This document shows, one piece after another, positions 29,629 through 41,875 of a DNA stretch of 43,885 nucleotides. The position numbers were made by a program, and so were the translations under genes. The notes under the pieces were generated by a model that saw only the letters and a list, made by a program, of their open reading frames with translations, searched no databases and had not been told where the DNA came from. How positions within the stretch are numbered: the stretch's first letter is position 1; every line of letters begins with the position of its first letter. The stretch comes from a virus, in the IMG/VR virus record IMGVR_UViG_3300046009_011120, positions 1 through 43,885 of that record; one strand, 5' to 3'.

Positions 29629-30699
29629 ATGAGTATATTAGAAAAACTGAAAAAGAATTCCACTATTAAAGAAACCGCTATCCTAAGTGAATCCAAATTC
29701 TTCACTAAAGCGGATATGGTTCAAACCACAGTTCCAGCATTAAATATCGCCTTGAGTGGTTCATTAGACGGCGGGTTAACTCCATCTCTATTCGTTATAG
29801 CCGGTAAATCTAAACACTTTAAAACATCATTCTCGTTAGTGATGGCTAAGAGTTATCTGGACAAATATCCGGAATCAGTCCTATTATTTTATGATTCAGA
29901 GTTTGGTTCTCCTCAGGCTTATTTTAGTTCGTTCGGTATTGATACCAGCCGTGTTCTTCATACACCTATTATGGACGTTGAAGAACTTAAATTCGATATT
30001 ATGGCTCAAATGAAAAATATCGAACGTAATGATAAGGTTATTATCATTATTGACTCCATAGGTAACTTAGCATCTAAAAAGGAAGTAGAAGATGCTATGA
30101 ATGAAAAATCTGTGGCAGATATGTCTCGTGCTAAACAATTAAAATCTTTATTCCGTATGGTTACTCCATATTTGACCACTAAAGATATCCCGTTAATTGC
30201 CATCAATCATACTTATGATACACAAGAAATGTATAGTAAGGCGGTTGTATCAGGTGGAACGGGTATTTACTATTCAGCGTCTACAATTTGGATTATTGGT
30301 CGTCAGCAAGAAAAAGATGGTACTGAAGTCGTAGGCTATAACTTTGTCATTAATGTTGAAAAGTCACGGTTCGTTAAAGAAAAATCTAAGATTCCTATTA
30401 ATGTTTCTTGGGATGGTGGTATTTCAACTTGGTCTGGTTTATTAGATATTGCTTTAGAGTCAGGCGCGGTTATTAAGCCTAGCAACGGCTGGTATCAAAA
30501 AGTTGATTTAGAAACAGGCGTGTTAGAAGAAAAGAAATATCGTGCTAAAGAAACTAACAACAAAGAGTTTTGGTTACCGGTATTGAAGCAGGCTAAATTT
30601 AGATCTTGGGTAGAAGATACCTATAAAATTGCTTGTGGACAAATGATATCAGATGATAGTATAGTTGATGAATTAGAAGATATCGATACTGAAATTTAA
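29629..30699 (+). CDS. uvsX: UvsX-like RecA-family recombinase (356 aa)
   Basis: It polymerises on single-stranded DNA and catalyses strand exchange for recombination-dependent replication and repair. The P-loop is the UvsX variant AGKSKHFKTS (58-67), as in T4 UvsX where Phe replaces the last Gly. Walker B IIIIDSIGNL is near 136-145; the loop GGTGIYYSASTIWII lies near 205-220. The C-terminus is acidic (DELEDIDTEI), as in T4-type UvsX. Length is close to T4 UvsX (391 aa). It precedes a small gene and the gp41 helicase, matching T4 order uvsX-40-41. Confidence 0.95.
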   Translation: MSILEKLKKNSTIKETAILSESKFFTKADMVQTTVPALNIALSGSLDGGLTPSLFVIAGKSKHFKTSFSLVMAKSYLDKYPESVLLFYDSEFGSPQAYFSSFGIDTSRVLHTPIMDVEELKFDIMAQMKNIERNDKVIIIIDSIGNLASKKEVEDAMNEKSVADMSRAKQLKSLFRMVTPYLTTKDIPLIAINHTYDTQEMYSKAVVSGGTGIYYSASTIWIIGRQQEKDGTEVVGYNFVINVEKSRFVKEKSKIPINVSWDGGISTWSGLLDIALESGAVIKPSNGWYQKVDLETGVLEEKKYRAKETNNKEFWLPVLKQAKFRSWVEDTYKIACGQMISDDSIVDELEDIDTEI

Positions 30700-30771: not shown

Positions 30772-31053
30772 ATGATAAACTATGTGCCCATTTTATATAT
30801 CGACAAAACCGGCGCTGAAGTAGCGGCAGTAGAATTTGACTTCTTAACTGAATCAGAATCTATCTATTGTGTGCTTACATACGATGATGTTAAGTTTGTT
30901 GAGATACCGGATGAGGAGGGTGGCATGTTAGAGTTCAATTACATTTTACAAGAAGGGGTTATCCCTGATGATGATTTGATGACGTTTAAAAAATTAACTG
31001 GTGATATTTTGGTCGATATTATTACCCAAGGAATTGAAACCGTTAAAGCCTAA
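30772..31053 (+). CDS. Hypothetical protein in T4 gene 40 position (93 aa)
   Basis: An acidic beta-rich protein (MINYVPILYIDKTGAEVAAV...) lying between uvsX and the helicase, where T4 has gene 40 (a prohead-assembly helper). I see no clear similarity to gp40, so the link is positional only. It ends ten bases before the helicase start. Confidence 0.65.
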   Translation: MINYVPILYIDKTGAEVAAVEFDFLTESESIYCVLTYDDVKFVEIPDEEGGMLEFNYILQEGVIPDDDLMTFKKLTGDILVDIITQGIETVKA

Positions 31054-31063
31054 TAGGATTGAT

Positions 31064-32857
31064 ATGCGAATTGAAGATATTATTATTTCTAATCTAATTT
31101 ACAATGAAGAGTTTACTAGAAAAACCTTACCATTCATCAAAAAAGAATATTTTTCTGACAGAATGGAGTCTATTCTAGTCAACGAAATTGGTGACTACTT
31201 TAACAAGTTCAATAAGATTATTACGCCGCAAATTCTTGATATTGAAATCAGAAACAGAACTGACATAAATGATAAAGAATTAACTGATTTAACGGCGCTT
31301 GTATCTAAAATTGAAAATACAGATATTAATGATGAATGGTTGTTACTTGAAACTGAAAAATTCTGTAAGGATAAAGCAGTTTATGGTGCTATATTACATT
31401 CCATTAAGATTATTGAGGGGAAGGATAAACAGTTCCGTGAAGACGCTATTCCTTCCATTTTATCTGAAGCATTAGCGATATCTTTTGATACAAATGTTGG
31501 TCATGATTATATTTTGGATTATTCTGAACGATACGACCATTACCATAATGTTGAAACTAAGATACCGTTTGATTTAGAGCTAATGAATAAAATTACCGGC
31601 GGCGGGTTAAGTCTTAAAACCTTAAACTGTTTCTTAGCAGGTTGCGTTCACCCTGATACGCCTGTTGAAGTTAAAATTACCAGTAAGCAAGGTTGGGTTG
31701 CTGAAAAGCATATTGTCATCGGTGACGTTAAAGAGTTGCTATTAGATTATAAAATCGAGGTAACATCTCCAGATGGCTGGGTTAACGTATCGAATTTTGT
31801 TAATAAAGGATTTTGGGATGAGTATGTCCTTACGTTAGCTAATGGTGATACAGTTAGATGTAATGAAATTCATTTGTTTGAAACCAGAACTGGCTGGCAG
31901 TATGCTAAAGATATCGTAGATCTTACCTTAGAATTCCTTACACCAAATGGTTGGGTTAGCGGTTATGTCGTAGATACTGGTGAGTTGATTCCTATCGTTG
32001 ATATTACGGTTGACCATGATAATCATAGGTACTATACGAATGGTGTTTCTTCTCATAACACAGGTGTTGGTAAATCGTTAGCGATGTGTCATATTGCGGC
32101 GGCTACTATGGCTCAGGGTAAAAATGTTCTATACATTACGATGGAAATGTCTGAAGAACGTATCGCTGAACGTATTGATGCTAATTTACTGAATATCCCT
32201 ATCACAGAGTTGAAAACTGTTGAACGACCTGTATTTGAAACTAGAATTCAAAGGTTGATGGAAAAGACTACGGGTAAGCTAATCATTAAAGAGTATCCTA
32301 CGTCATCAGCTCATGCCGGTCATTTTAGAGTTTTGCTTGAGGAGTTAAAGGGTAAAAAGAACTTCAAGCCTGACCTTATCTGTATTGACTATTTGAATAT
32401 CTGTGCTTCGCAAAGAATGAAGTACGGTAGCGGCGTTAATTCTTATATGCTGATTAAGTCTATCGCTGAGGAGTTGCGCGGGTTAGCGGTTGAATACAAT
32501 GTGCCTGTTGTTACCGCGACTCAGCCTAATCGTGAGGGGCAAACTTCTACGGATATGGATTTGACCAATGTAAGTGAGTCTATCGGTATTGCCCATACGT
32601 TAGATTTATTCATAGGCTTAATGTCTACTGAAGAGTTGGAAGAAATGGGTCAGATTATGGTTAAGCAGTTGAAAAATAGATACAATGACATTTCTTATTA
32701 TAAGCGGTTCACTATCGGTATAGATAGAAGTAAGATGAGATTGTTTGACGTTGAAAGCTCCGCCCAGCATAATATATCAGGTGCCGGCACCGTTGATACT
32801 AATAACGGCTTTCAATCTAAAACTAAGAAAATTGAAACAAATGGCTTCAAATTTTAG
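31064..32857 (+). CDS. 41: gp41-like DnaB-family replicative helicase precursor with intein (598 aa)
   Basis: A hexameric 5'-3' helicase of the replisome. Residues 1-165 are the N-terminal collar, then the RecA-like motor. The Walker A is split: LAG (191-193) is followed by an intein (194-332) and then TGVGKS (333-338). After splicing the sequence reads AGTGVGKS, a proper P-loop. Downstream motifs include NVLYITMEMSEERIAERI (H1a), LICIDYLNI (Walker B) and VVTATQPNREG (H3). The spliced length, 459 residues, matches T4 gp41 (475). ATG 31064 follows TAATAGGATTGAT; an upstream start would overlap the previous gene. Confidence 0.93.
   Translation: MRIEDIIISNLIYNEEFTRKTLPFIKKEYFSDRMESILVNEIGDYFNKFNKIITPQILDIEIRNRTDINDKELTDLTALVSKIENTDINDEWLLLETEKFCKDKAVYGAILHSIKIIEGKDKQFREDAIPSILSEALAISFDTNVGHDYILDYSERYDHYHNVETKIPFDLELMNKITGGGLSLKTLNCFLAGCVHPDTPVEVKITSKQGWVAEKHIVIGDVKELLLDYKIEVTSPDGWVNVSNFVNKGFWDEYVLTLANGDTVRCNEIHLFETRTGWQYAKDIVDLTLEFLTPNGWVSGYVVDTGELIPIVDITVDHDNHRYYTNGVSSHNTGVGKSLAMCHIAAATMAQGKNVLYITMEMSEERIAERIDANLLNIPITELKTVERPVFETRIQRLMEKTTGKLIIKEYPTSSAHAGHFRVLLEELKGKKNFKPDLICIDYLNICASQRMKYGSGVNSYMLIKSIAEELRGLAVEYNVPVVTATQPNREGQTSTDMDLTNVSESIGIAHTLDLFIGLMSTEELEEMGQIMVKQLKNRYNDISYYKRFTIGIDRSKMRLFDVESSAQHNISGAGTVDTNNGFQSKTKKIETNGFKF
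31643..32059 (+). other. Mini-intein in the helicase P-loop (139 aa, no homing endonuclease)
   Basis: Intein landmarks are all present: Cys1 with block A CVHPDTPVEVK; block B ANGDTVRCNEIHLFET with the catalytic His (the usual TxxH Thr is Asn here, NEIH); block F IPIVDITVDHDNHRYYTNGV; and the C-terminal His-Asn pair (331-332) followed by Thr as +1 nucleophile. No endonuclease blocks or insertion fit in 139 residues, so it is a mini-intein. Without splicing the ATPase cannot form its P-loop. Confidence 0.93.
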
Positions 32858-32867
32858 TCTAAATATC

Positions 32868-32896
32868 TTTACTTTGGCGTCCGTTTAAAGTATAAT
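32868..32896 (+). promoter_or_regulatory. Class B promoter of the modification island
   Basis: TTTACT (32868-32873), 17-bp spacer, TATAAT (32891-32896), then an A/T leader to ATG 32924. Confidence 0.78.
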
Positions 32897-32923: not shown

Positions 32924-34330
32924 ATGGTTAATGTTATTGTTGCTAAATCTAAATTAGATTGTGAGCACCTATTAGGTAGATTTCTTGATGAATCTCATTT
33001 TGATATTTTGGTTCAAGAAGATACCGACTGTTACATGCCTGCTGTGTGTGATTTATCAACTCAAGTAGATTGTCAGTCAGAATGTAATACATGCGATAAA
33101 GGTCAAGATGAACTTCGTATAGCCTTTAAGTTTAGAAAAAACTTTTTCTCTAAACAAGAGCACGACTGGGCGTATGAAGGATTAAGAGATGCTGCTACAT
33201 TATCTAATAACAGAGGTCTTGCCGCTGGTACTTTTCAGGATACAGGTAATGTTGATGGGGTGTTTAGCGATAACTCTGGTCGTATTAGGGTTAAGCCTAA
33301 AGAACATGCTATTCTTGATTATTTCATTAATCCTATCGATGATTTGTATAACGAAGGTGATGAGTTTGACAAAATCAAAAATGCTCATTATGTTGATAAC
33401 GAAATTCGTTGTCAGGTTTGGTTACCTTCTAAATTGCCTGAAGGGTTTAACTTTGATGAGTGGGCAGAAGCAACTTCTAAGTTACCTCGCGACGCGGCTA
33501 AAGCTGAAGCTGAAATGGTTGCTAAAGAGTTTATCTCTAGTACAAACTATGCCGTTCCATGTAATTCTGGTGTAGCGGGTTGGTTTGACAGATATCCTAG
33601 AATACCTTATGGTCGCCCAACATCATATACGAATTATCAGTTCCAAAAGTTTTCTAAATGTTTCCCTTTTATTCAATCGTTGAATAACGGCTTTAAAACC
33701 TTATTGCCATGGCGCTGGGGTAATCAAAAAGCGGCGGCTGATAAAATTGATGAAAAGTTTTTGGTTCCAGGCACGGTGTTTACTACGTTAACAGTGAATA
33801 ATACCTTTAGAACTGCGGCTCATTACGATGCTGGCGATTTAAATGACGGCTTATCTAATTTGCTAGTGTTATCTGTTAATGATAACTATTCAGGTGGCTA
33901 TCTAGTATTTCCAGAATACAGAGTAGCGGTTAACGTTAGACCTCTTGATTTATTGTTGGTTAATAATCATGAAGTTATGCATGGTAATACGCCTATCTTT
34001 AAACATGATGAATTGGCTGAGCGTGTTTCTATTATTTGTTACTTCAGAGAAAATATGCTAAATTTAGGTTCATATGATTACGAAGATTGCCGGTTCAATT
34101 TTGTTGAATCGAGAAAAAATGACCCAGACCATAAAGACCAACGGTTTAGATGGAACGGTATTACTCCAGGAATGTGGGCTGACCATGAATCTAAAGAAGG
34201 CGATTATTCTAAGGCTAAAGAATGGTACGACTATCTTAAAAAACAGCCTAATGGTGATGAGTGGTTAGATAAGTATCACCCTTGGCTTAAAAACGCCTAT
34301 GAAAGTACATCACTAGAGGAATTCTTTTAA
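32924..34330 (+). CDS. TET/JBP-family 2-oxoglutarate/Fe(II) dioxygenase (468 aa)
   Basis: It should hydroxylate the methyl group of thymine or 5-methylcytosine in DNA using Fe(II), O2 and 2-oxoglutarate. The double-stranded beta-helix core is at about 285-380: H300-x-D302 (AHYDAGDLNDG), then GGYLVFPEYRVAVNVRPLDL, the distal H353 (EVMHGNTPI) and R367 (ERVSIICYFRENM) for 2-oxoglutarate. The GRPTSYT segment near 230 and the LVFPEY-VAV-RP-D run are typical of phage TET/JBP proteins. A Cys-rich patch (C47-C57) in the ~200-residue N-terminal region is unexplained. It overlaps the glycosyltransferase gene by one base. Confidence 0.82.
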   Translation: MVNVIVAKSKLDCEHLLGRFLDESHFDILVQEDTDCYMPAVCDLSTQVDCQSECNTCDKGQDELRIAFKFRKNFFSKQEHDWAYEGLRDAATLSNNRGLAAGTFQDTGNVDGVFSDNSGRIRVKPKEHAILDYFINPIDDLYNEGDEFDKIKNAHYVDNEIRCQVWLPSKLPEGFNFDEWAEATSKLPRDAAKAEAEMVAKEFISSTNYAVPCNSGVAGWFDRYPRIPYGRPTSYTNYQFQKFSKCFPFIQSLNNGFKTLLPWRWGNQKAAADKIDEKFLVPGTVFTTLTVNNTFRTAAHYDAGDLNDGLSNLLVLSVNDNYSGGYLVFPEYRVAVNVRPLDLLLVNNHEVMHGNTPIFKHDELAERVSIICYFRENMLNLGSYDYEDCRFNFVESRKNDPDHKDQRFRWNGITPGMWADHESKEGDYSKAKEWYDYLKKQPNGDEWLDKYHPWLKNAYESTSLEEFF

Positions 34331-35469
34331 TGAAAGTTTTGAACGTACATTCTTCTCCGTTTGGTATATTTTCAAAAACGGGATCGTTTATGGGCGGGAT
34401 AGAAAAGGTTGTAGTTGATACACATAATTTATTAAGGTCAACGTTTGACATTAAAAGTTTTTGTTCTGTTTCTGATAATTTGGAGGGTGATGAATGGATT
34501 CCCATTCTACCCTCTGAGGGTTTAGAATATTGGACTAAAAATAAAAAACAGTTGTATCAAGATATTATTCAAAAAATAAAGTCTGAATCTCCTGATGTTA
34601 TTATTAATCACGGTTCAGAAAAAATACTGAAATTATCAAATTCTCTTGGGATACCGTCATTATTTATTGACCATAGATCTAATCAGCTTCATAAACTATA
34701 TCATGAAGGATTTTTTACAAACTTAGCGTTCAAAACTCAAGAAATAGGCGGTAAGGTTTACGCCGTATCTAACTATTCAAAAAACTGTAAAGAACTTGAG
34801 ATTAAAAAGTTATGGGATTCTGAATTTAAATTTGATGGGTGGATAAACTTTCAGTATGTTGAATCTGTCGATTCGTTAATTGAAACACCTAACAAAAAAT
34901 GTGTTACAATTGGTAGACCAGAAGATAATAAATCTCCACATCGTATTGAAACTTTTAGAAAAAAATTCAACATAGAATATAACCTAGTAACTTCTATTCC
35001 GGATAACCCTAAAAAGGATACAAAAAAATATTTTACAGAAAGATTAGAAAGCAATCAAAATATTGTTGATAGGATGCACTTAAATATTTCTAGAGAAAAA
35101 ACTTTAGAAATATTAAAGCAATCCAGTTTGTATTATTCAACATCTGCTATTGAATCGGCGGGTATAACCGCATTTGAGAGTTTCAGCTATGGTGTTCCTG
35201 TTATACTTCACGCACCCACCGGTATACATGCTTCTACAATGTATATGCCAAATGGTAAAGGTACTGCCTGGGAATACTATACCACAAAAAATATTGACGA
35301 AATTAGGGCGTTTATTGATAAATGTATAAATTACACATATGACGATCGGCTAAGTATTCAAAATGAATTAGTAAAAAATAATTCAAAGGAAGTTGCTCTA
35401 AATAATTTAAGTGATATTATTAGATCTATACATCCTGTTGCTGTACATAATCTTGAGGAGTTTATGTGA
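34330..35469 (+). CDS. GT4-like (GT-B) glycosyltransferase (379 aa)
   Basis: It probably moves a sugar from a nucleotide donor to hydroxymethylated DNA or another acceptor. The N-terminus has a GT-B glycine turn (SFMGGIEKVVVDTHNLL, about 17-34). The C-terminal donor site has the GT4 E-x7-E pattern in SAIESAGITAFESFSYGVPV (about 275-294), followed by a Pro-Gly turn region. It overlaps the dioxygenase stop by one base and the next gene by four, so it belongs to the modification operon. Confidence 0.75.
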   Translation: MKVLNVHSSPFGIFSKTGSFMGGIEKVVVDTHNLLRSTFDIKSFCSVSDNLEGDEWIPILPSEGLEYWTKNKKQLYQDIIQKIKSESPDVIINHGSEKILKLSNSLGIPSLFIDHRSNQLHKLYHEGFFTNLAFKTQEIGGKVYAVSNYSKNCKELEIKKLWDSEFKFDGWINFQYVESVDSLIETPNKKCVTIGRPEDNKSPHRIETFRKKFNIEYNLVTSIPDNPKKDTKKYFTERLESNQNIVDRMHLNISREKTLEILKQSSLYYSTSAIESAGITAFESFSYGVPVILHAPTGIHASTMYMPNGKGTAWEYYTTKNIDEIRAFIDKCINYTYDDRLSIQNELVKNNSKEVALNNLSDIIRSIHPVAVHNLEEFM

Positions 35470-36638
35470 AATATATACATAAAGATGAAAAAAATAAACC
35501 ATATGTTGATTGGCGAGAACCTGAATTCAGGATAGAAGGATTTTTACGATGGTTAAAATGGAGAATGCGTTGGGGTGATTTAGACCATTATGTTTGTAAC
35601 AACGCATATAGAGATGCTACCGGTATAATGTCGCCTACTGGTTTACCAATGACTAAAGAGCAACAATATTGGTTTTCTTTAATATTTGGTATGACGTATC
35701 AGTCTGAAATGGCATGGGTTATTTACTGGAATTTTCCTAATTTTTGGGATATTGACTTTGATAAACTTACAGAGTGGAATCTTAGCAATATGGAAATCCA
35801 AAAATATGCTAAAGATACAAAATACAATAAAGGAAGAATTGTAGAGCAAGTTAAATCATTGAGAGAAATCATAGCGCCTTACGGTACTATTGAAAATTTT
35901 TTCAATAACGATTTAAGTGGAGATCCTAGTAAAGATTTTTATCTTACATTTAATAAGTGTTTATCTTTCTATAAATATGGTAGAATGACAGCATGGATAA
36001 CTTGTCAAACACTATTCGAAACGGCTGGCTTATATATTAAACCAGAATCTGTATTAGCTACCGATCCTTCTTGTTGGTCTGTGCGAAAAGGGTTATTATA
36101 TTTGTACAATAAGGTTGATGATGCATACGAAGATACCGCTAAATTAACTGAAGAAGAAATTATATGGATCAAAGAAAAAGAAAAAGAGTTGTACGATTTA
36201 TCGCTAAATTATATTGATGATGATAATCGTGAAATATTTTCTAATTTTTTGTTAGAATCTCATTTATGCCAGTATAAAAAATTGGTATTAGGCGGGGATT
36301 ATGCTGGACACAGTAGTGGTGATCATGTTTCTAGGGCGTTATGGCTAAAAGAAAGATGGGAACATGTTAATTTTGATGCGTTTTTTACTATAGCGGTTAA
36401 AAGTCATTCTCCGTTAGTCTCTGGTAACAGGGAATCTAAACCATTAAGAGATTTGTGTAAATTAACCGGTCAGATGATTAACTTACATGAAGATTTTGAT
36501 GATATGCCAAATATGTATAATGAATTAGATATTGACCCAAGTTGGTTAAAAACTTCTGATTTTGATAAAATTATACTTAAAAAGATTGATGATTATATCA
36601 ATCAATCTTATGATGTATTTGATGAGTTTTTTGTTTAA
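35466..36638 (+). CDS. aGPT-PPlase-like (amino acid:DNA transferase clade) protein (390 aa)
   Basis: An all-helical, Trp-rich protein. FLRWLKWRMRWGDLDHYVCN near residues 27-46 and FGMTYQSEMAWVIYWNFP near 74-91, together with GGDYAGHSSGDHVSRAL (about 278-294), are as I recall the alpha-glutamyl/putrescinyl-thymine pyrophosphorylase clade, which displaces (pyro)phosphate from activated 5-hydroxymethyl bases and attaches an amine or amino acid. The identification rests on recall of the family plus context (dioxygenase, kinase and glycosyltransferases beside it). It overlaps the glycosyltransferase by four bases. Confidence 0.6.
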   Translation: MKYIHKDEKNKPYVDWREPEFRIEGFLRWLKWRMRWGDLDHYVCNNAYRDATGIMSPTGLPMTKEQQYWFSLIFGMTYQSEMAWVIYWNFPNFWDIDFDKLTEWNLSNMEIQKYAKDTKYNKGRIVEQVKSLREIIAPYGTIENFFNNDLSGDPSKDFYLTFNKCLSFYKYGRMTAWITCQTLFETAGLYIKPESVLATDPSCWSVRKGLLYLYNKVDDAYEDTAKLTEEEIIWIKEKEKELYDLSLNYIDDDNREIFSNFLLESHLCQYKKLVLGGDYAGHSSGDHVSRALWLKERWEHVNFDAFFTIAVKSHSPLVSGNRESKPLRDLCKLTGQMINLHEDFDDMPNMYNELDIDPSWLKTSDFDKIILKKIDDYINQSYDVFDEFFV

Positions 36639-36646
36639 TAAAGCGC

Positions 36647-36675
36647 TTTACTTTTACACTAAAACTCATTATAAT
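36647..36675 (+). promoter_or_regulatory. Class B promoter reading into a structured region
   Basis: TTTACT (36647-36652), 17-bp spacer, TATAAT (36670-36675). No + strand gene follows for 800 bp; the transcript would be antisense to the homing endonuclease gene. Confidence 0.72.
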
Positions 36676-36688
36676 ATAATTTAGTTTT

Positions 36689-36722
36689 GGGCAGCTACCT
36701 CTAACGAGCCAAATTTCTGCCC
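36689..36722 (+). other. Stem-loop at the start of the 36670 transcript
   Basis: GGGCAG (36689-36694) pairs with CTGCCC (36717-36722) across a 22-base loop, beginning about seven bases after the expected transcription start. No poly-T follows, so it is not a simple terminator. It may be the 5' end of a non-coding RNA. Confidence 0.5.
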
Positions 36723-36737
36723 TTAGTCTATTAAAAA

Positions 36738-37334
36738 CTATAAAACAACTGATACATGCATCGAAATAATCATTAATTTACAATTGTCAAAATGATATCG
36801 TTTCATATTATTTGCACCTCCAGTCTTACCACAATGTGGGCATGTAATTTGTGGATGTGGTTTACGTTTTGGACTTTGTGATTTAGGCTTACGCAGGTTA
36901 GCTTTATGTTCTTCTGACTTAGGTTTACGCAGTTTGGCTTTAGTTTCTTCTGTAAGGCGTTTATTTTTATGTGAATCAGACATTTTGGCTTTGGTTTCAT
37001 CTGTACATTTTCTGTCTTTCACACTTCCACCATGTAGCCCATTTTCTGGTATTTGATTTGCCCATTCTTTAGATTTGACGATATCGTTATCAGCAGAAAA
37101 CTGTAAGGCAATCTCGATGATAGATGTGTCATAGTATAGATCCGAAACCCATAAAGTTACGATATGTTCTTTACCGTGTTTATTAATGTGTTTGAGCCAA
37201 TATGTGCCAGATCCATTGTATGTGTATGGATTTGTTTTTGTAGTTTTACCAAAATATTTCTTTTTGGTGATGGAGTGTTGTTTGATGTACAGATAGGTGG
37301 GTGTGATGGGAGTATAAATACTTGTGCTGGTCAT
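36738..37334 (-). CDS. GIY-YIG homing endonuclease (198 aa)
   Basis: The GIY-YIG fold is recognisable at residues 14-50: YLYIKQHSITKKKYFGKTTK then YNGSGTYWLKHINKHG, with E (IIEIALQF) following. The middle is a NUMOD3-type repeat region (TDETKAKMSDSHKNKRLTEE, KAKLRKPKSEEHKANLRKPK) and the end a zinc finger (CPHCGKTGG...HFDNC). These match the Seg-type free-standing homing endonucleases of T4-like phages. It lies opposite to all flanking genes between the aGPT-PPlase-like and inositol-synthase genes, as expected for an invader. RBS AAAGGATCT precedes ATG. Confidence 0.85.
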   Translation of the reverse strand: MTSTSIYTPITPTYLYIKQHSITKKKYFGKTTKTNPYTYNGSGTYWLKHINKHGKEHIVTLWVSDLYYDTSIIEIALQFSADNDIVKSKEWANQIPENGLHGGSVKDRKCTDETKAKMSDSHKNKRLTEETKAKLRKPKSEEHKANLRKPKSQSPKRKPHPQITCPHCGKTGGANNMKRYHFDNCKLMIISMHVSVVL

Positions 37335-37366
37335 GATAGATCCTTTTTATCGATAGAATGATTAGT

Positions 37367-37404
37367 GCCACTGGGATGTAGGAGTCCGCGAGTGGCTTTT
37401 TTTG
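37367..37404 (+). terminator. Terminator upstream of the inositol-synthase promoter
   Basis: GCCACT (37367-37372) pairs with AGTGGC (37391-37396), possibly extended by an inner GGA/TCC pairing, followed by eight Ts. It would stop transcripts from the 36670 promoter just before the next promoter. Confidence 0.75.
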
Positions 37405-37431
37405 TACAAAATATTTAGTAAAAATAGAACT

Positions 37432-37459
37432 TTACTTTTTACAATAAATCATTTATAAT
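37432..37459 (+). promoter_or_regulatory. Promoter of the inositol-phosphate synthase gene
   Basis: TTTACT (37432-37437), 16-bp spacer, TATAAT (37454-37459), then a leader without the class A block; GAGGAATAACAA precedes ATG 37484. Confidence 0.78.
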
Positions 37460-37483
37460 ATTATTTTCATTGAGGAATAACAA

Positions 37484-38761
37484 ATGTCAAAAATACGAGT
37501 AGCATTGGTAGGTATCGGTTCTTGCGCTAAATCTTTAGTGGAAGGTGTTCAATATTACATAGAAAATCAAAACGATACAGTCGGTTTAATGTATCCAGAT
37601 ATCGGCGGTTATACCGTTAACAATATTGAATTTGTGTGTGGGTTTGATGTTGATATCCGCAAAGTTAACCTACCATTAAAAGAAGCATTAAGAGCAAATC
37701 CAAATTGCTCTATGGATCATGTATTAGAAATATCAGATGCATGTGTACCAAAGGGCGCTATCGTTTATTCTGGACCAGAGTTAGATGGTGTTGCTCCTCA
37801 TATGTTAGACTACCCAGAAAACGTTTCCTTTAGAACCGGCGCTATTCCAGCAGAATCTTTTCAACGTGTCGTTGAATTGTTAAAATACCATAAAGTTGAC
37901 GTTGTAGTCAACTATCTTCCAGTAGGTTCACATGAAGCAAGTAAATTCTATATTGATGCAGCAGTTCAAGCTGGGTGCCATTTTGTTAACTGTATCCCTA
38001 CATTCATTTCTACGGAAGAAGCTCAGATTGTCGAGCAAAAATTCATAGACGCGGGGTTAACTATTGTTGGTTCTGATATGCGTTCTGGTTTCGGTGCGTC
38101 ACGTTTATCTGAAATATTACAGGGTGGAATGCTTGACGCTGGGTTATTAGTTACCCAACATATCCAAATGAATATGGCGGCAGGTACAACTCAGGGACAA
38201 GAAAATATCCGTACCGGTAGAACGGCTAACACAGACTTCTTGAATATGGCTAAAACTGACCGATTAGAGTCTAAACATATTTCTAAAGAAAATGTTCTGA
38301 AAGGTCAAAATAGTGTAAGAAACACATCTATCGATGGTATGACTTTATATGCCGGACCATCGCTAACGGTTATTCAAAAACCAGGAGGAACTTATGTTGG
38401 TTCTGATAATAAAATAGCCAATATTGATATTGTAGCTTACGGGTTTGCCGGCGCTAGATATGAATTGACTGCTAGATTATCAGTTCAAGATTCTCCAAAC
38501 TCAGGTGCAGTTGTAGTGTCTGCTATTAGATTCTGTAAGGTGGCTTCAGAATTAGGTATCGTTGGGTTCTTACGCGGTGCTTCTCATATTACACAAAAAA
38601 CGCCGCCGGTTCAAATGAAAATTGAAGATGCTAAATTTGAGTGTGATGCGTTAGCAAGACGAATCATTACTCCTATGACTGAATCTCAATTAAAAGAAAA
38701 CAACCCGATCGCTAAAAAATTGCCGTACACATTTCAAAAGGCGGTTAACGACTATAACTAA
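37484..38761 (+). CDS. ino1: myo-Inositol-1-phosphate synthase (INO1-like, 425 aa)
   Basis: It converts glucose 6-phosphate to 1L-myo-inositol 1-phosphate through an NAD-dependent internal redox reaction. The NAD-binding Rossmann start is VALVGIGSCAKSLVEG (7-22); GLMYPDIGGY (34-43), GFDVD (53-57), and a conserved central part with SDMRSGFGASRLSEIL and HIQMNMAAGTTQGQENI follow; the C-terminal domain contains YGFAGARYELTARLSVQD. This is the shorter prokaryotic/archaeal type. Most Gammaproteobacteria do not make inositol, so a phage copy is striking and probably serves the surrounding DNA-modification genes. Confidence 0.9.
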   Translation: MSKIRVALVGIGSCAKSLVEGVQYYIENQNDTVGLMYPDIGGYTVNNIEFVCGFDVDIRKVNLPLKEALRANPNCSMDHVLEISDACVPKGAIVYSGPELDGVAPHMLDYPENVSFRTGAIPAESFQRVVELLKYHKVDVVVNYLPVGSHEASKFYIDAAVQAGCHFVNCIPTFISTEEAQIVEQKFIDAGLTIVGSDMRSGFGASRLSEILQGGMLDAGLLVTQHIQMNMAAGTTQGQENIRTGRTANTDFLNMAKTDRLESKHISKENVLKGQNSVRNTSIDGMTLYAGPSLTVIQKPGGTYVGSDNKIANIDIVAYGFAGARYELTARLSVQDSPNSGAVVVSAIRFCKVASELGIVGFLRGASHITQKTPPVQMKIEDAKFECDALARRIITPMTESQLKENNPIAKKLPYTFQKAVNDYN

Positions 38762-38775
38762 TTCTCCACTTATGT

Positions 38776-40050
38776 ATGGATACAAAATTAAAACTTGGAA
38801 TTATAATTACAATCGATCCTACCAATAAAGGTAGGATCCCCAGTGAAACATATTATTTTAATGCCCTATATCATCTACAGAAAACCTTTGTAGATGATTT
38901 TTCAATTGATATTATATGTATGACAAAACGCGGCGTTGATATTGTTGAAAAACTGTCAACACCAACATTAGATGAAACAGAATATCGTTTTTTTGATTTT
39001 CCTCATAACATAGTATTGGTTTCCGGTGATGAAAAAATTGAAGAAGCGGCTAAAAAATATGATGTTTTACTCTGTCAAAAAACATACGCTATGCCATTCG
39101 GTGGTAGGTTAGCCAAACGCTGTATTGACCAATATAAACTGATGTCGCTTTTTACCGGTAAATACAACAAACCAATTATGTTTAGAATCAGTGATTGTGA
39201 AGAAGATTATGTTGATTACCTAAAAATGGCGCAATTTAATATGCCGTCATTTGAGCGGAATTTAAAACCTAAAGATCCTGAACATTATGATTGTATTGAG
39301 CGTTTTACAACACAAGAATACATAAATTATGAAAATGTTTATTGGCTAGTTAACGGTTCATACAAATTTGATTGGTTGCCTGACGCTATGTTAAATAGAA
39401 AAACCGAAGGTCCTATCAAAGATTTAGTTTCAGAAGAAACTGTTCGTAAAAACACAATCCATTTATCTGACGATATTTTCTTTCTTGTTAAAGAAAATTA
39501 TGAAAAATATTCTTATTTGAATGGAACAGCGCCTACGGTTAACTCTTTTTGTTTTATAGGGTTTTTGAATTGGATTAATAAACATCGCGTCACCGTATTC
39601 AAAAAATTGTTTAAAGAATTTCCTGAAGGCACTCCACCTATACATTTATTTGGTGAAATTGATACAGACAAATTCAAAACAGATAATCCTAACGTTACAA
39701 TTGAAAAGGGATTTATTCCAGGAAATTCAAAGGAATATTTCGAATTCCTTAACAGATACATTGCTTATGTTTTTATAGGTAAGGGTAGAGAAAACATAGC
39801 GTATGTTGGAAAAACTTGTTATGATGCAATGGTCGCTAGAACACCAATTGTTGTTTATTCACAATGTGACGTGAATCAAGTTTTATTTCCTGATAATCCT
39901 GAATTTTATTTTGATGATATTAAAGGATTATCAGCTATATTTCAAACACTACAAGATAATGATGTACGATCTAAATGGGTGGACATTCAAACTGAAATTA
40001 TATTTAGAGAATTTGATATTGAAAATGCTAATTTTTTTAAGCTAAAATAA
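38776..40050 (+). CDS. GT-B-like glycosyltransferase (424 aa)
   Basis: Two Rossmann-like halves are suggested: N-terminal LKLGIIITIDPTNKGRIPSE, and a C-terminal donor-binding part with FIPGNSKEYFEFLNRYIAYV and YVGKTCYDAMVARTPIVVYS (about 345-365) ending near DNPEFYFDDI. It is likely a sugar or polyol transferase. The position directly after the inositol synthase suggests that it uses inositol or inositol phosphate as donor or acceptor; this is inference. It is followed by a class B promoter. Confidence 0.6.
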   Translation: MDTKLKLGIIITIDPTNKGRIPSETYYFNALYHLQKTFVDDFSIDIICMTKRGVDIVEKLSTPTLDETEYRFFDFPHNIVLVSGDEKIEEAAKKYDVLLCQKTYAMPFGGRLAKRCIDQYKLMSLFTGKYNKPIMFRISDCEEDYVDYLKMAQFNMPSFERNLKPKDPEHYDCIERFTTQEYINYENVYWLVNGSYKFDWLPDAMLNRKTEGPIKDLVSEETVRKNTIHLSDDIFFLVKENYEKYSYLNGTAPTVNSFCFIGFLNWINKHRVTVFKKLFKEFPEGTPPIHLFGEIDTDKFKTDNPNVTIEKGFIPGNSKEYFEFLNRYIAYVFIGKGRENIAYVGKTCYDAMVARTPIVVYSQCDVNQVLFPDNPEFYFDDIKGLSAIFQTLQDNDVRSKWVDIQTEIIFREFDIENANFFKLK

Positions 40051-40053
40051 TTC

Positions 40054-40082
40054 TTTACTTTTTTATGATAACAGAGTATAAT
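40054..40082 (+). promoter_or_regulatory. Class B promoter
   Basis: TTTACT (40054-40059), 17-bp spacer, TATAAT (40077-40082), upstream of the HAD-like and kinase genes. Confidence 0.78.
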
Positions 40083-40110
40083 TGAATTTTTTGAGTTAAG
40101 GGTAATACAA

Positions 40111-40491
40111 ATGCAAATAAACACTTTTGATATTGATGGCGTTATTTATATGGGGAAAGGGTTACGCGGCGTTCGTCCTGACCCAGATGATATTATTATA
40201 ACCGGTAGATCTATAGAAGAAGCAAAAGCAACGCTAACTATGTTGTATCAGCAAGGTATTTTTAACCAAGTGTTCTTTAATCCTATTAAGTATAATGAAA
40301 AGACACGTGCCAGTTCCGGCTTACATAAAGCTAGAACGATAGAAATGCTGATAGAGTCTGGGTATGATATTATGTTCCATTTTGAGGACGACCCGATTCA
40401 AATTGAATTGATAAAAAAATACTGTAAGAAAGTGCATGTTATTGCTATTGATTCCCCTACTGAAAAAGAAAACGTGAGAGCTGAATTATGA
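40111..40491 (+). CDS. HAD-like small phosphatase-related protein (126 aa)
   Basis: It begins MQINTFDIDGVIYMGKG, a HAD motif I (DIDG, 7-10), then IIITGRSIEEAKATL (motif II-like Thr-Gly-Arg) and FHFEDDPIQIELI (motif IV, DD). The small cap-free form resembles the phosphatase half of polynucleotide kinase/phosphatase-type or trehalose-phosphatase-like proteins. In this island it could dephosphorylate inositol phosphate or an activated base. It overlaps the kinase by four bases. Confidence 0.65.
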   Translation: MQINTFDIDGVIYMGKGLRGVRPDPDDIIITGRSIEEAKATLTMLYQQGIFNQVFFNPIKYNEKTRASSGLHKARTIEMLIESGYDIMFHFEDDPIQIELIKKYCKKVHVIAIDSPTEKENVRAEL

Positions 40492-41033
40492 GAAAAATTA
40501 TTGCGGTCTGCGGTGTGCCTGGAACGGGTAAAACTACTTTGTTCCGTGAGTTTATGAAGAATCATACATGGGAACGACGCGAAGAAGCTAAACTGGTTTC
40601 TTCAGAATATTCTAAGGATTTGAATTTACATATCCTAGGCAAATACGATGAGGGTGAAGTATTCGCAGGAACAGACAAGTTGAGTCTTGCTGTCCAACCT
40701 GAATTTATAAAATGGTTAGAATCTTCAGATACAAATGTTTTATGGGAGGGAGATAGGTTAACTAGCGCAAAACTTTTTGAATTCTGCGCTAATATGAAAG
40801 GTGTAGATTTTGAAATTATAGTCTTAAAATGCCCTGATGAAACTTTAAAAGAAAGATATGGTGAGCGCGGTTCTGAACAATCAGAAACGTTTTTAGCTGG
40901 TAGGTACACTAAGATATCTAATATTGAATCTAATTTTGATTTGATGCCAAACGTAACAGTCTATAAAAATTCGTCTAAAGAAGAACAAGCTGTACTTTTA
41001 AGTAAATTAAATTCTTCCTTTGTTAATCTATAA
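40488..41033 (+). CDS. P-loop kinase, 5-hydroxymethyl-dU DNA kinase-like (181 aa)
   Basis: Walker A GVPGTGKTT (9-17) lies at the N-terminus. The following HILGKYDEGEVFAGTDKLSL and AVQPEFIKWL (about 48-80) are characteristic of the phage kinases that phosphorylate 5-hydroxymethyl-dU in DNA, the activating step before hypermodification. LWEGDRLTSAKLF and a C-terminal LKERYGERGSEQ complete the fold. It is ATGA-coupled to the HAD-like gene. Its last 73 bases overlap the convergent homing endonuclease gene. Confidence 0.75.
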   Translation: MRKIIAVCGVPGTGKTTLFREFMKNHTWERREEAKLVSSEYSKDLNLHILGKYDEGEVFAGTDKLSLAVQPEFIKWLESSDTNVLWEGDRLTSAKLFEFCANMKGVDFEIIVLKCPDETLKERYGERGSEQSETFLAGRYTKISNIESNFDLMPNVTVYKNSSKEEQAVLLSKLNSSFVNL

Positions 41034-41875
41034 AAATCTGGCTTATTGGGATTAGCAAGCGCTTTTCCTACGTTTATTTTTATGTTATTGTTTTTATACC
41101 ATAAACCGGCTGCTGAAATTGATTCAAATACCATACCTTGACAATAGACCGGTTTTTTTGACGCATCAATTGCAACGTTTATACTGTAGTCAATTTGTTC
41201 CTTTGTGCGACGCTTATTTGCTTCAGCAACAGCTTTTTTCTGTTTATCTGATGTAGGTATTCCTAACCTAGCAACTCTTGACTTTTCTATATGTTCTTTT
41301 GTCTGCGTTTTTCCTTTATTGGGACTTGGTTTTTGTACCCAAGTCCCATTTAGCACATTTGGGTCATTTTTATCTACTCTACCCAAATATTCTCCAGTTT
41401 TAGCGTCTAATGCTAATATTTTACCCAATAATGCTTCTTTACGTTTTATTTTAACACTTTCTTTTTTTGATGGATTATTTTCTGTCATTTGTTTAGAAGT
41501 GCGAATAGAATTATCTAATTTTAATTTTTCATAAATTTTTGAATTTATACGGGTGTAATTTCTATTTTGATTTGAAGAACCAGCATTATTCATTTTCACA
41601 AATCCTTTTATTTGGCTTCCACCATACGCTTTCCATAATATCCAATGTAACAAATAATGCTGTCTAGCTGTGACTATCAATTTATTCCACGTAAACATTT
41701 TTAAATTTGCATATTCAGGAAAAAGATCTTTTGCTTTAGGGCAAATATGGTGGTTTTCTGTGTAAACAAAATCATCAATTTTCTGCGTTTTAAGTGATTC
41801 AACTAAAGTGTAGTATCTATTGATGTAGTGTTGTGAATGTGGCTTTGACTGTAAAACCGCTAAAATATCTATCAT
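40961..41875 (-). CDS. HNH homing endonuclease with NUMOD-type tail (304 aa)
   Basis: The HNH site is near residues 38-90: YTENHHICPKAKDLFPEYAN, then LIVTARQHYLLHWILWKAYG, like T4-type HNH endonucleases. A basic linker with NUMOD3-like repeats (KKESVKIKRKEALLGK, TKEHIEKSRVARLGIPTSDK) follows, and a NUMOD1-like DNA-binding segment (KPVYCQGMVFESISAAGLWY) lies near 240-260. It is convergent with, and overlaps, the kinase gene by 73 bp, so its insertion probably remodelled the kinase C-terminus. No early promoter precedes it on the minus strand. Confidence 0.82.
   Translation of the reverse strand: MIDILAVLQSKPHSQHYINRYYTLVESLKTQKIDDFVYTENHHICPKAKDLFPEYANLKMFTWNKLIVTARQHYLLHWILWKAYGGSQIKGFVKMNNAGSSNQNRNYTRINSKIYEKLKLDNSIRTSKQMTENNPSKKESVKIKRKEALLGKILALDAKTGEYLGRVDKNDPNVLNGTWVQKPSPNKGKTQTKEHIEKSRVARLGIPTSDKQKKAVAEANKRRTKEQIDYSINVAIDASKKPVYCQGMVFESISAAGLWYKNNNIKINVGKALANPNKPDFYRLTKEEFNLLKSTACSSLDEFL

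Follow-up and report, generated by a model that had tools for sequence, protein, structure and literature searches.

A phage TET/JBP island with an inositol-synthesis module: a candidate route to a hypermodified thymine

Why would a bacteriophage encode inositol synthesis among enzymes that modify DNA? The question is raised by the linear IMG/VR viral record IMGVR_UViG_3300046009_011120 from a T4-like phage of bacteria, analyzed here over its whole length of 43,885 bases (hereafter, the window). In a T4-like gene order, with uvsX at 29629 and the gp41 helicase at 31001, an island (32924–41033) directly follows gp41 and encodes a TET/JBP dioxygenase, a GT4-type glycosyltransferase, an amino-acid:DNA transferase (ADDT), an INO1-type inositol-phosphate synthase, a probable GT-B glycosyltransferase (P5), a HAD phosphatase and a P-loop kinase (KIN), with an interrupting homing endonuclease. 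A preliminary description, made from the sequence alone, had proposed that these genes jointly produce a multi-step modified base. The locus is almost certainly a DNA-hypermodification island, and we assign a probability of roughly 0.6 to a route in which thymine is converted to 5-hydroxymethyluracil (5hmU), phosphomethyluracil and inositolyl-methyluracil, followed by glycosylation.

In this route, the TET/JBP enzyme would hydroxylate the methyl group of thymine in finished DNA, yielding 5hmU, and the P-loop kinase would phosphorylate the new hydroxyl to 5-phospho(pyrophospho)methyluracil. INO1 would convert glucose-6-phosphate to inositol-3-phosphate, from which HAD would take the phosphate off, and ADDT would exchange the (pyro)phosphate on the base for inositol or an inositol derivative. 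GT4 and the probable GT-B enzyme would then glycosylate the inositol, a step at which relatives would use the glycosyltransferase TAGT or an FkbM methyltransferase, and the product would shield the phage DNA from host nucleases.

The combination of TET, ADDT, INO1, HAD and KIN is not a chance one: it recurs in the Caulobacter phage Cr30 and in about twenty metagenomic contigs (designated by L numbers below). In Cr30, a 9-kb stretch contains TET (gp129), ADDT (gp123), INO1 (gp121), HAD (53130–53519) and KIN (gp114), that is, the gene set of the window minus GT4 and the P5 gene; Cr30 differs from the window in having TAGT (gp122) instead of these two, along with several extra small genes. In the current annotation of this region (NC_025422, 51788–60681), TET is labeled “SNF2 DNA repair protein” and the kinase “terminase small subunit,” the rest being hypothetical except INO1.

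INO1 (425 aa; 37484–38761, plus strand) exceeded the cut-off of PF01658 (2.8e-8; 34.3 bits against 27) and aligned over nearly its whole length with Mycobacterium tuberculosis INO1 (PDB 1gr0, 2.8e-56); its score against the equivalog TIGR03450, 219 bits, was below the cut-off of 638. Residues K264, K268, K310 and K372, which we take to be active-site lysine candidates, were invariant (1.00) in 71 sequences, and the protein is the predicted source of inositol-3-phosphate from glucose-6-phosphate. HAD (126 aa; 40111–40491, plus strand) was below the Pfam cut-offs (16.0 bits against 27 for the HAD profile), matched PHROG 415 (1.7e-10) and contained the DxDGV, TGR, K and DD motifs, with D7, D9, G32, R33, K73, D93 and D94 at 1.00 and T31 at 0.98 in 61 sequences; it is a predicted inositol-phosphate phosphatase.

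Alignment-based scans of viral contigs detected 303 INO1 and at least 174 KIN relatives, the best 80 of each being kept; the locus counts given here are per contig, cover these best-scoring relatives only, represent non-independent events and were obtained with profiles built for this analysis. The viral INO1-HAD pair very probably belongs to DNA base modification. Base-modification genes were present in 86 of the 88 viral INO1 loci, the other two contigs stopping at or just past HAD, and the neighbors spanned three base-modification chemistries, with Dpd/Que genes in five loci. HAD directly followed INO1 in 68 of the 88 (P5 comes first in four), and the 18 records that INO1 matched in the phage record collection, from Cr30 and Menderavirus, were also those matched by HAD. 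Within the INO1 loci, three pairs of families showed zero overlap: KIN (29) and the 5-hydroxymethyldeoxyuridine DNA kinase HMUDK (41), ADDT (35) and U4 (39), and TET (24) and hydroxymethylase (27). Cellular INO1 enzymes and glycosyltransferases work in lipid and glycan metabolism, and Cr30 has surface-sugar-type genes elsewhere; these facts would fit a scenario in which action on DNA is confined to TET, KIN and ADDT, with INO1, HAD and the glycosyltransferases serving as auxiliary metabolic genes for the lipids or surface glycans of the host. The near-constant association with base-modification genes argues against this scenario, as does the mutual exclusivity of INO1-HAD and the glutamine amidotransferase (GATase)/amidoligase-like module, which never occur together in KIN loci, and we consider it very improbable.

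Five architectures (a to e) were distinguished among the INO1 and KIN loci. The window belongs to class b, TET-(GT4, TAGT, FkbM methyltransferase or nothing)-ADDT-INO1-HAD-KIN. Class a, TET-GATase-amidoligase-like-GNAT-ADDT-KIN, is common among T4-like phages (L123, L129, L130, L154, L160, L165 and others) and would represent another TET-fed hypermodification, one in which the side chain is an amide or amine. Classes c and d lack TET: class c is KIN-hydroxymethylase-TAGT-ADDT-INO1-HAD, and class d (L035–L109) combines INO1-HAD-HMUDK-U4 with a preceding dCMP hydroxymethylase. U4, which occupies the place of ADDT at the HMUDK-type INO1 loci, was rejected as a divergent ADDT (hhalign probability of 1%) and has an invariant GDSH motif instead; it is an uncharacterized family, and phrog_17781 joins it to a U2-like domain. 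Class e is DpdA-INO1-HAD-QueC, and in L049, L050, L051, L055 and L004 (Menderavirus and metagenomic contigs) INO1-HAD lies beside or among the DpdA/QueC 7-deazaguanine genes. Menderavirus resembles the window in carrying INO1-HAD beside base-modification genes, between uvsX and gp41, and differs from it in encoding a 7-deazaguanine pathway (QueC/DpdA/QueE), with neither ADDT nor TET in the locus.

Which enzyme would use the inositol? The 390-aa protein (35466–36638, plus strand), described earlier as aGPT-PPlase-like, was placed in the ADDT family by PF18724 (2e-13; 51.1 bits against a cut-off of 26.2). Its AlphaFold2 (AF2) model (pLDDT, 93.6) had a single confident PDB match, PUGT, the 5-phosphomethyldeoxyuridine (5-PmdU) glycinyltransferase of phage PaMx11, which accounted for the top three hits (8z2n/8z2m; probability of 1.00, TM-score of 0.51–0.54 by target, E of ~0.01); the next, unrelated matches had probabilities of at most 0.15, and DNA glycosylases were at noise level. 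Against the viral structure library, the model matched ADDT proteins (best TM-score, 0.82). We labeled trees by cassette, INO1-linked or GATase-linked, and counted changes, with shuffles as the null. The ADDT tree required one change (SH-aLRT support of 99 for 13 INO1-linked sequences versus the rest) and the KIN tree required six, while the TET tree, with eight INO1-linked sequences among 35 labeled rows, required eight, the maximum possible (shuffles, 7–8). Because the ADDT tree splits INO1- from GATase-linked loci in one step and the TET tree needs the maximum number, ADDT probably attaches an inositol-derived group. TET is dissociated from the side-chain supplier and would act earlier in the proposed pathway than ADDT. 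The O-linked side chain of ViI offers a precedent for an oxygen (hydroxyl) nucleophile in the ADDT step.

Several facts tell against inositol attachment by ADDT. ADDT and INO1 are adjacent, so that their shared history could partly reflect physical linkage; KIN flanks the same module, yet co-segregates less cleanly. Characterized ADDTs use amino acids rather than inositol. INO1 also resembles 6k96 (5e-30), which makes the phosphate of a five-membered cyclitol, and so a cyclitol other than inositol is conceivable. Conceivably, the group attached by ADDT is an ordinary amino acid, as in phages M6 and ViI, and inositol comes in at a later stage, for example, as an acceptor or within a glycosyl unit transferred by GT4, GT-B or TAGT. 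Amino-acid transfer gave the ADDT family its name, and the nearest relative with a solved structure is a glycinyltransferase; furthermore, the closest model for INO1 is of the mycothiol type, and MshA, an enzyme that glycosylates inositol phosphate, is among the structural matches of the P5 model. We nevertheless regard this course as unlikely: the ADDT tree, and neither the KIN nor the TET tree, tracks the INO1 and GATase modules exactly, and the glycosyltransferases are inconstant, being replaced by an FkbM methyltransferase in L022/L023 and L057-type loci, with no gene at all between TET and ADDT in L037–L041. Inositol in the side chain is, in our estimate, likely.

Which base is modified? 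The TET/JBP 2-oxoglutarate-Fe(II) dioxygenase (468 aa; 32924–34330, plus strand) scored 82 bits against the Tet_JBP profile (PF12851; curated cut-off of 34.9; E = 3.8e-23) and matched phrog_24024 (9.7e-137), with no match in a PDB sequence search. The Fe(II) ligands of the HxD…H motif (H300, D302 and H353) and the 2-oxoglutarate-binding arginine (R367) were invariant (1.00) in 107 homologues, and we predict that the enzyme is a thymine (5-methyl) hydroxylase acting on DNA. C5-methyltransferase (PF00145) was found neither in the complete genomes of Cr30, DLP6, C48C1 and S-CBWM1, nor in ten contigs of 68–172 kb with TET, ADDT and KIN, nor in the window or in 76 window-type TET loci; the same ten contigs contained no PF00303 hydroxymethylase or thymidylate synthase, and the one such protein in Cr30 is a canonical thymidylate synthase (373 bits), with Asn at the base-reading position. 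The preliminary description had argued for oxidation in the polymer from the lack of a dUMP hydroxymethylase or C5-methyltransferase in the window, an argument that is weak for a 44-kb fragment and becomes strong in the light of these negatives in relatives. In the Melnitz TET clade, C5-methyltransferase accompanies TET in 65 of 71 loci, the other six having TET at the contig start, and in a maximum-likelihood tree the C5-methyltransferase-linked TETs are split from the window type by a branch with 100/100 support and a length of 3.88.

A swap of the first enzyme bears on the same question. In class c (L101/L102/L106/L108), TET is missing, and a dUMP-hydroxymethylase-type protein is encoded in its stead beside ADDT-INO1-HAD. 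Its nearest phage relatives come from M6-like Pseudomonas phages (45%, 8e-79), with ViI-like phages also among them; it is 46.5% identical (6e-44) to an SPO1-like “deoxyuridylate hydroxymethyltransferase” and, in the column of the PYNI motif, carries the uracil-type Asn at the position of the base-reading Asp179 of T4 dCMP hydroxymethylase (PMC6400193). The class c ADDTs group with the TET-linked class b ADDTs in the tree. Thus, members of one ADDT subfamily come after a dUMP hydroxymethylase in one phage and after TET in another, an indication that both routes pass through 5hmU. The hydroxymethylases of class d are of the dCMP type (PDB 1b49, 9e-89; Asp at the base-reading position), which rules out that all inositol loci are uracil based; in class d, inositol may decorate cytosine too.

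KIN (181 aa; 40488–41033, plus strand) was assigned by profile search to Ploopntkinase3 (PF18751; 1.3e-6; 28.6 bits against a cut-off of 27), a P-loop kinase family linked to DNA modification, and has Walker A, GTD and EGDR blocks conserved in 92 homologues. ADDT is present in 91 of 105 KIN loci. KIN did not match the HMUDK helical-domain profile PF18723, which the alternative family U2 does match; it is a predicted P-loop DNA 5-hydroxymethylpyrimidine kinase. Together, the family placements of ADDT and KIN support the multi-step modified base proposed in the preliminary description; assignment of the two proteins to unrelated families would have counted against it, and neither was so assigned. 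The kinase was discarded as a sign of a uracil substrate: the same family occurs in 27 of the 71 C5-methyltransferase-TET loci, and so it does not discriminate uracil from cytosine. In these Melnitz-type loci (L030, 4010–8090; L192–L262), C5-methyltransferase, TET and variable genes are found with a KIN-family kinase and no ADDT, a gene content that suggests a 5-hydroxymethylcytosine (5hmC) kinase pathway.

This sharing of the kinase detracts from the thymine assignment, as do the distant relatedness of the class c kinase (24%, E = 3e-4), on contigs that are partial, and the fact that the window is a genome fragment, such that a C5-methyltransferase could lie elsewhere in its own genome. TET could then convert 5-methylcytosine produced by such an enzyme, or by one from the host, to 5hmC, from which the kinase and the transferase would make a hypermodified cytosine; the C5-methyltransferase-TET-KIN sets of Melnitz-type phages and the class d loci, which combine INO1-HAD with a C5-methyltransferase and a dCMP hydroxymethylase of the T4 type, are compatible with this possibility. 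It is at odds with the separate grouping of the C5-methyltransferase-linked TETs, the missing C5-methyltransferase in window-type loci, complete genomes and large contigs, and the pairing of INO1-clade ADDT with a uracil-type hydroxymethylase, and we rate it as distinctly unlikely. Thymine is favored because of the lack of C5-methyltransferase in relatives, the exchange of TET for a hydroxymethylase and the fold match of ADDT, and is very likely the substrate.

The tailoring step is the most variable one. The GT4-type (GT-B) glycosyltransferase (379 aa; 34330–35469, plus strand) matched PF00534 (1.1e-7; 32.0 bits against a cut-off of 26.4) and has the E-x7-E site as ESAGITAFE (residues 275–283). 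It had no phage match, being known so far from the phage of the window alone, and no match in a PDB sequence search; it is predicted to glycosylate the side chain. P5 (424 aa; 38776–40050, plus strand) showed no family match in profile searches. Its AF2 model is of low confidence (pLDDT, 49.6) because its relatives, confined to the phage of the window and three close contigs, are so few; the best structural matches were GT-B enzymes (E of 2.6e-5, TM-score of ~0.25), and P5 is a probable second GT-B glycosyltransferase. In relatives, the tailoring gene encodes TAGT (Cr30, L078, L088) or an FkbM methyltransferase (L022, L057), a variety to be expected if a polyhydroxyl side chain is decorated. 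In L013, L014, L016 and L018, the genes after TET encode GT4, an Anp1-like glycosyltransferase and a dNMP kinase, and both ADDT and KIN are missing, an arrangement that apparently serves direct glycosylation of the hydroxymethyl base.

By profile searches and motifs, all genes of the island were found where the preliminary description had located them, and its calls for TET/JBP, GT4, ADDT, INO1, HAD and the kinase held, the second GT-B call having weak support. The reported coupling of genes is borne out by start/stop overlaps at 34330 (TAATG), 35466 (GTGA) and 40488 (ATGA). The island had also been described as collinear; this applies to the pathway genes, all on the plus strand, and overlooks two minus-strand homing endonucleases that are outside the pathway. 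One, with a NUMOD3 motif (36738–37334; phrog_314, 2.7e-11; phrog_655, 1.2e-9), sits between ADDT and INO1, and the other (40961–41875; phrog_655, 5.1e-25) lies at the right edge of the island. In the close relative L008, the ADDT-INO1 gap is ~42 bp, with neither the endonuclease nor GT4. L008 and L009 are near-identical phages, with TETs 94% and 88% identical to that of the window, yet both contigs (L008, 3202–6586; L009, 4950–6648) have a different ADDT (25–28%) and no GT4; hence, close relatives differ by an exchange of the central part of the island.

A phage-type promoter, TTTACT-N17-TATAAT, was detected by a hexamer scan ahead of TET (32868–32896), with further copies ahead of INO1 (37431–37459) and HAD-kinase (40054–40082), all on the plus strand. 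The scan yielded 28 promoter-like copies (CTTTACTTTT-N-TATAAT) across 958–43605, all on the plus strand and none on the minus strand, compared to three sites for a strict 35-base pattern. Four copies of the element are in or at the island, and a shared TAGATCTTAATGAAGTTAAACCT leader often follows it. The adjacent gp41-type helicase gene (31001–32857) contains an intein of ~139 aa exactly at Walker A (LAG|C…HN|TGVGKS), too short for a homing endonuclease domain; L008 and L009 share the intein, L010, L040 and L088 lack it, and gp41 is of similar length in L049–L051.

How does the proposed pathway relate to known ones? In M6, ViI and phiW-14, phosphorylation of 5-hydroxymethyldeoxyuridine takes place in DNA and precedes its substitution (PMC6449724, PMC5977210). 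The window would share with them a phosphorylated 5hmU on which an ADDT/PUGT-fold transferase displaces the phosphate. It would differ in that 5hmU is produced by TET/JBP in the polymer instead of from a dUMP precursor, in a kinase that lacks the HMUDK helical domain, and in inositol synthesis in place of amino-acid tailoring. Base J of kinetoplastids is made by JBP1/2, which hydroxylate thymine in the polymer, and by a glucosyltransferase that then glycosylates the product. The proposed route resembles it in both respects and departs from it by interposing a kinase, a transferase and inositol synthesis, as a whole-operon phage system. Phage TETs acting on 5-methylcytosine were reportedly characterized by Burke et al. 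in 2021; those clusters likewise combine TET/JBP with glycosyltransferases, TAGT being found in Cr30 and L088, whereas the window type has no C5-methyltransferase, belongs to another TET clade and contains ADDT and INO1. In 2013, Iyer et al. are said to have predicted that phages build on TET/JBP-made hydroxymethylpyrimidines. The 5hmU kinase/transferase route, the 5-methylcytosine TETs of phages and the predicted use of TET/JBP-made bases are already known. The following points are new as far as the literature searched shows: the inositol module and the fact that it is portable across base chemistries, the matching of ADDT with INO1, and the evidence that phages have a TET clade of the thymine type; the search retrieved no link between inositol and phage DNA bases.

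More tentatively, and a little short of even odds, inositol could be a general phage base decoration, with INO1-HAD as a portable supplier. It would serve 5hmU made by TET or by a dUMP hydroxymethylase, 5hmC obtained via a dCMP hydroxymethylase, an HMUDK-type kinase and U4, and 7-deazaguanine made via DpdA/Que; the window would be the TET-fed thymine version, with the first thymine-acting phage TET/JBP.

The use of TET/JBP-made bases as starting points is directly testable in the cultured phage Cr30, which infects the laboratory bacterium Caulobacter crescentus. If the proposed pathway is correct, its enzymes would be new tools for labeling thymine in DNA, and modification chemistry would be readable from sequence. 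Phages would possess an undescribed class of cyclitol-bearing DNA bases, and their TET/JBP enzymes would include a thymine-oxidizing branch beside the known 5-methylcytosine branch. These modification systems would then consist of a constant front end, TET and the kinase, joined to exchangeable side-chain modules, either ADDT with INO1-HAD or ADDT with the GATase/amidoligase-like/GNAT set.

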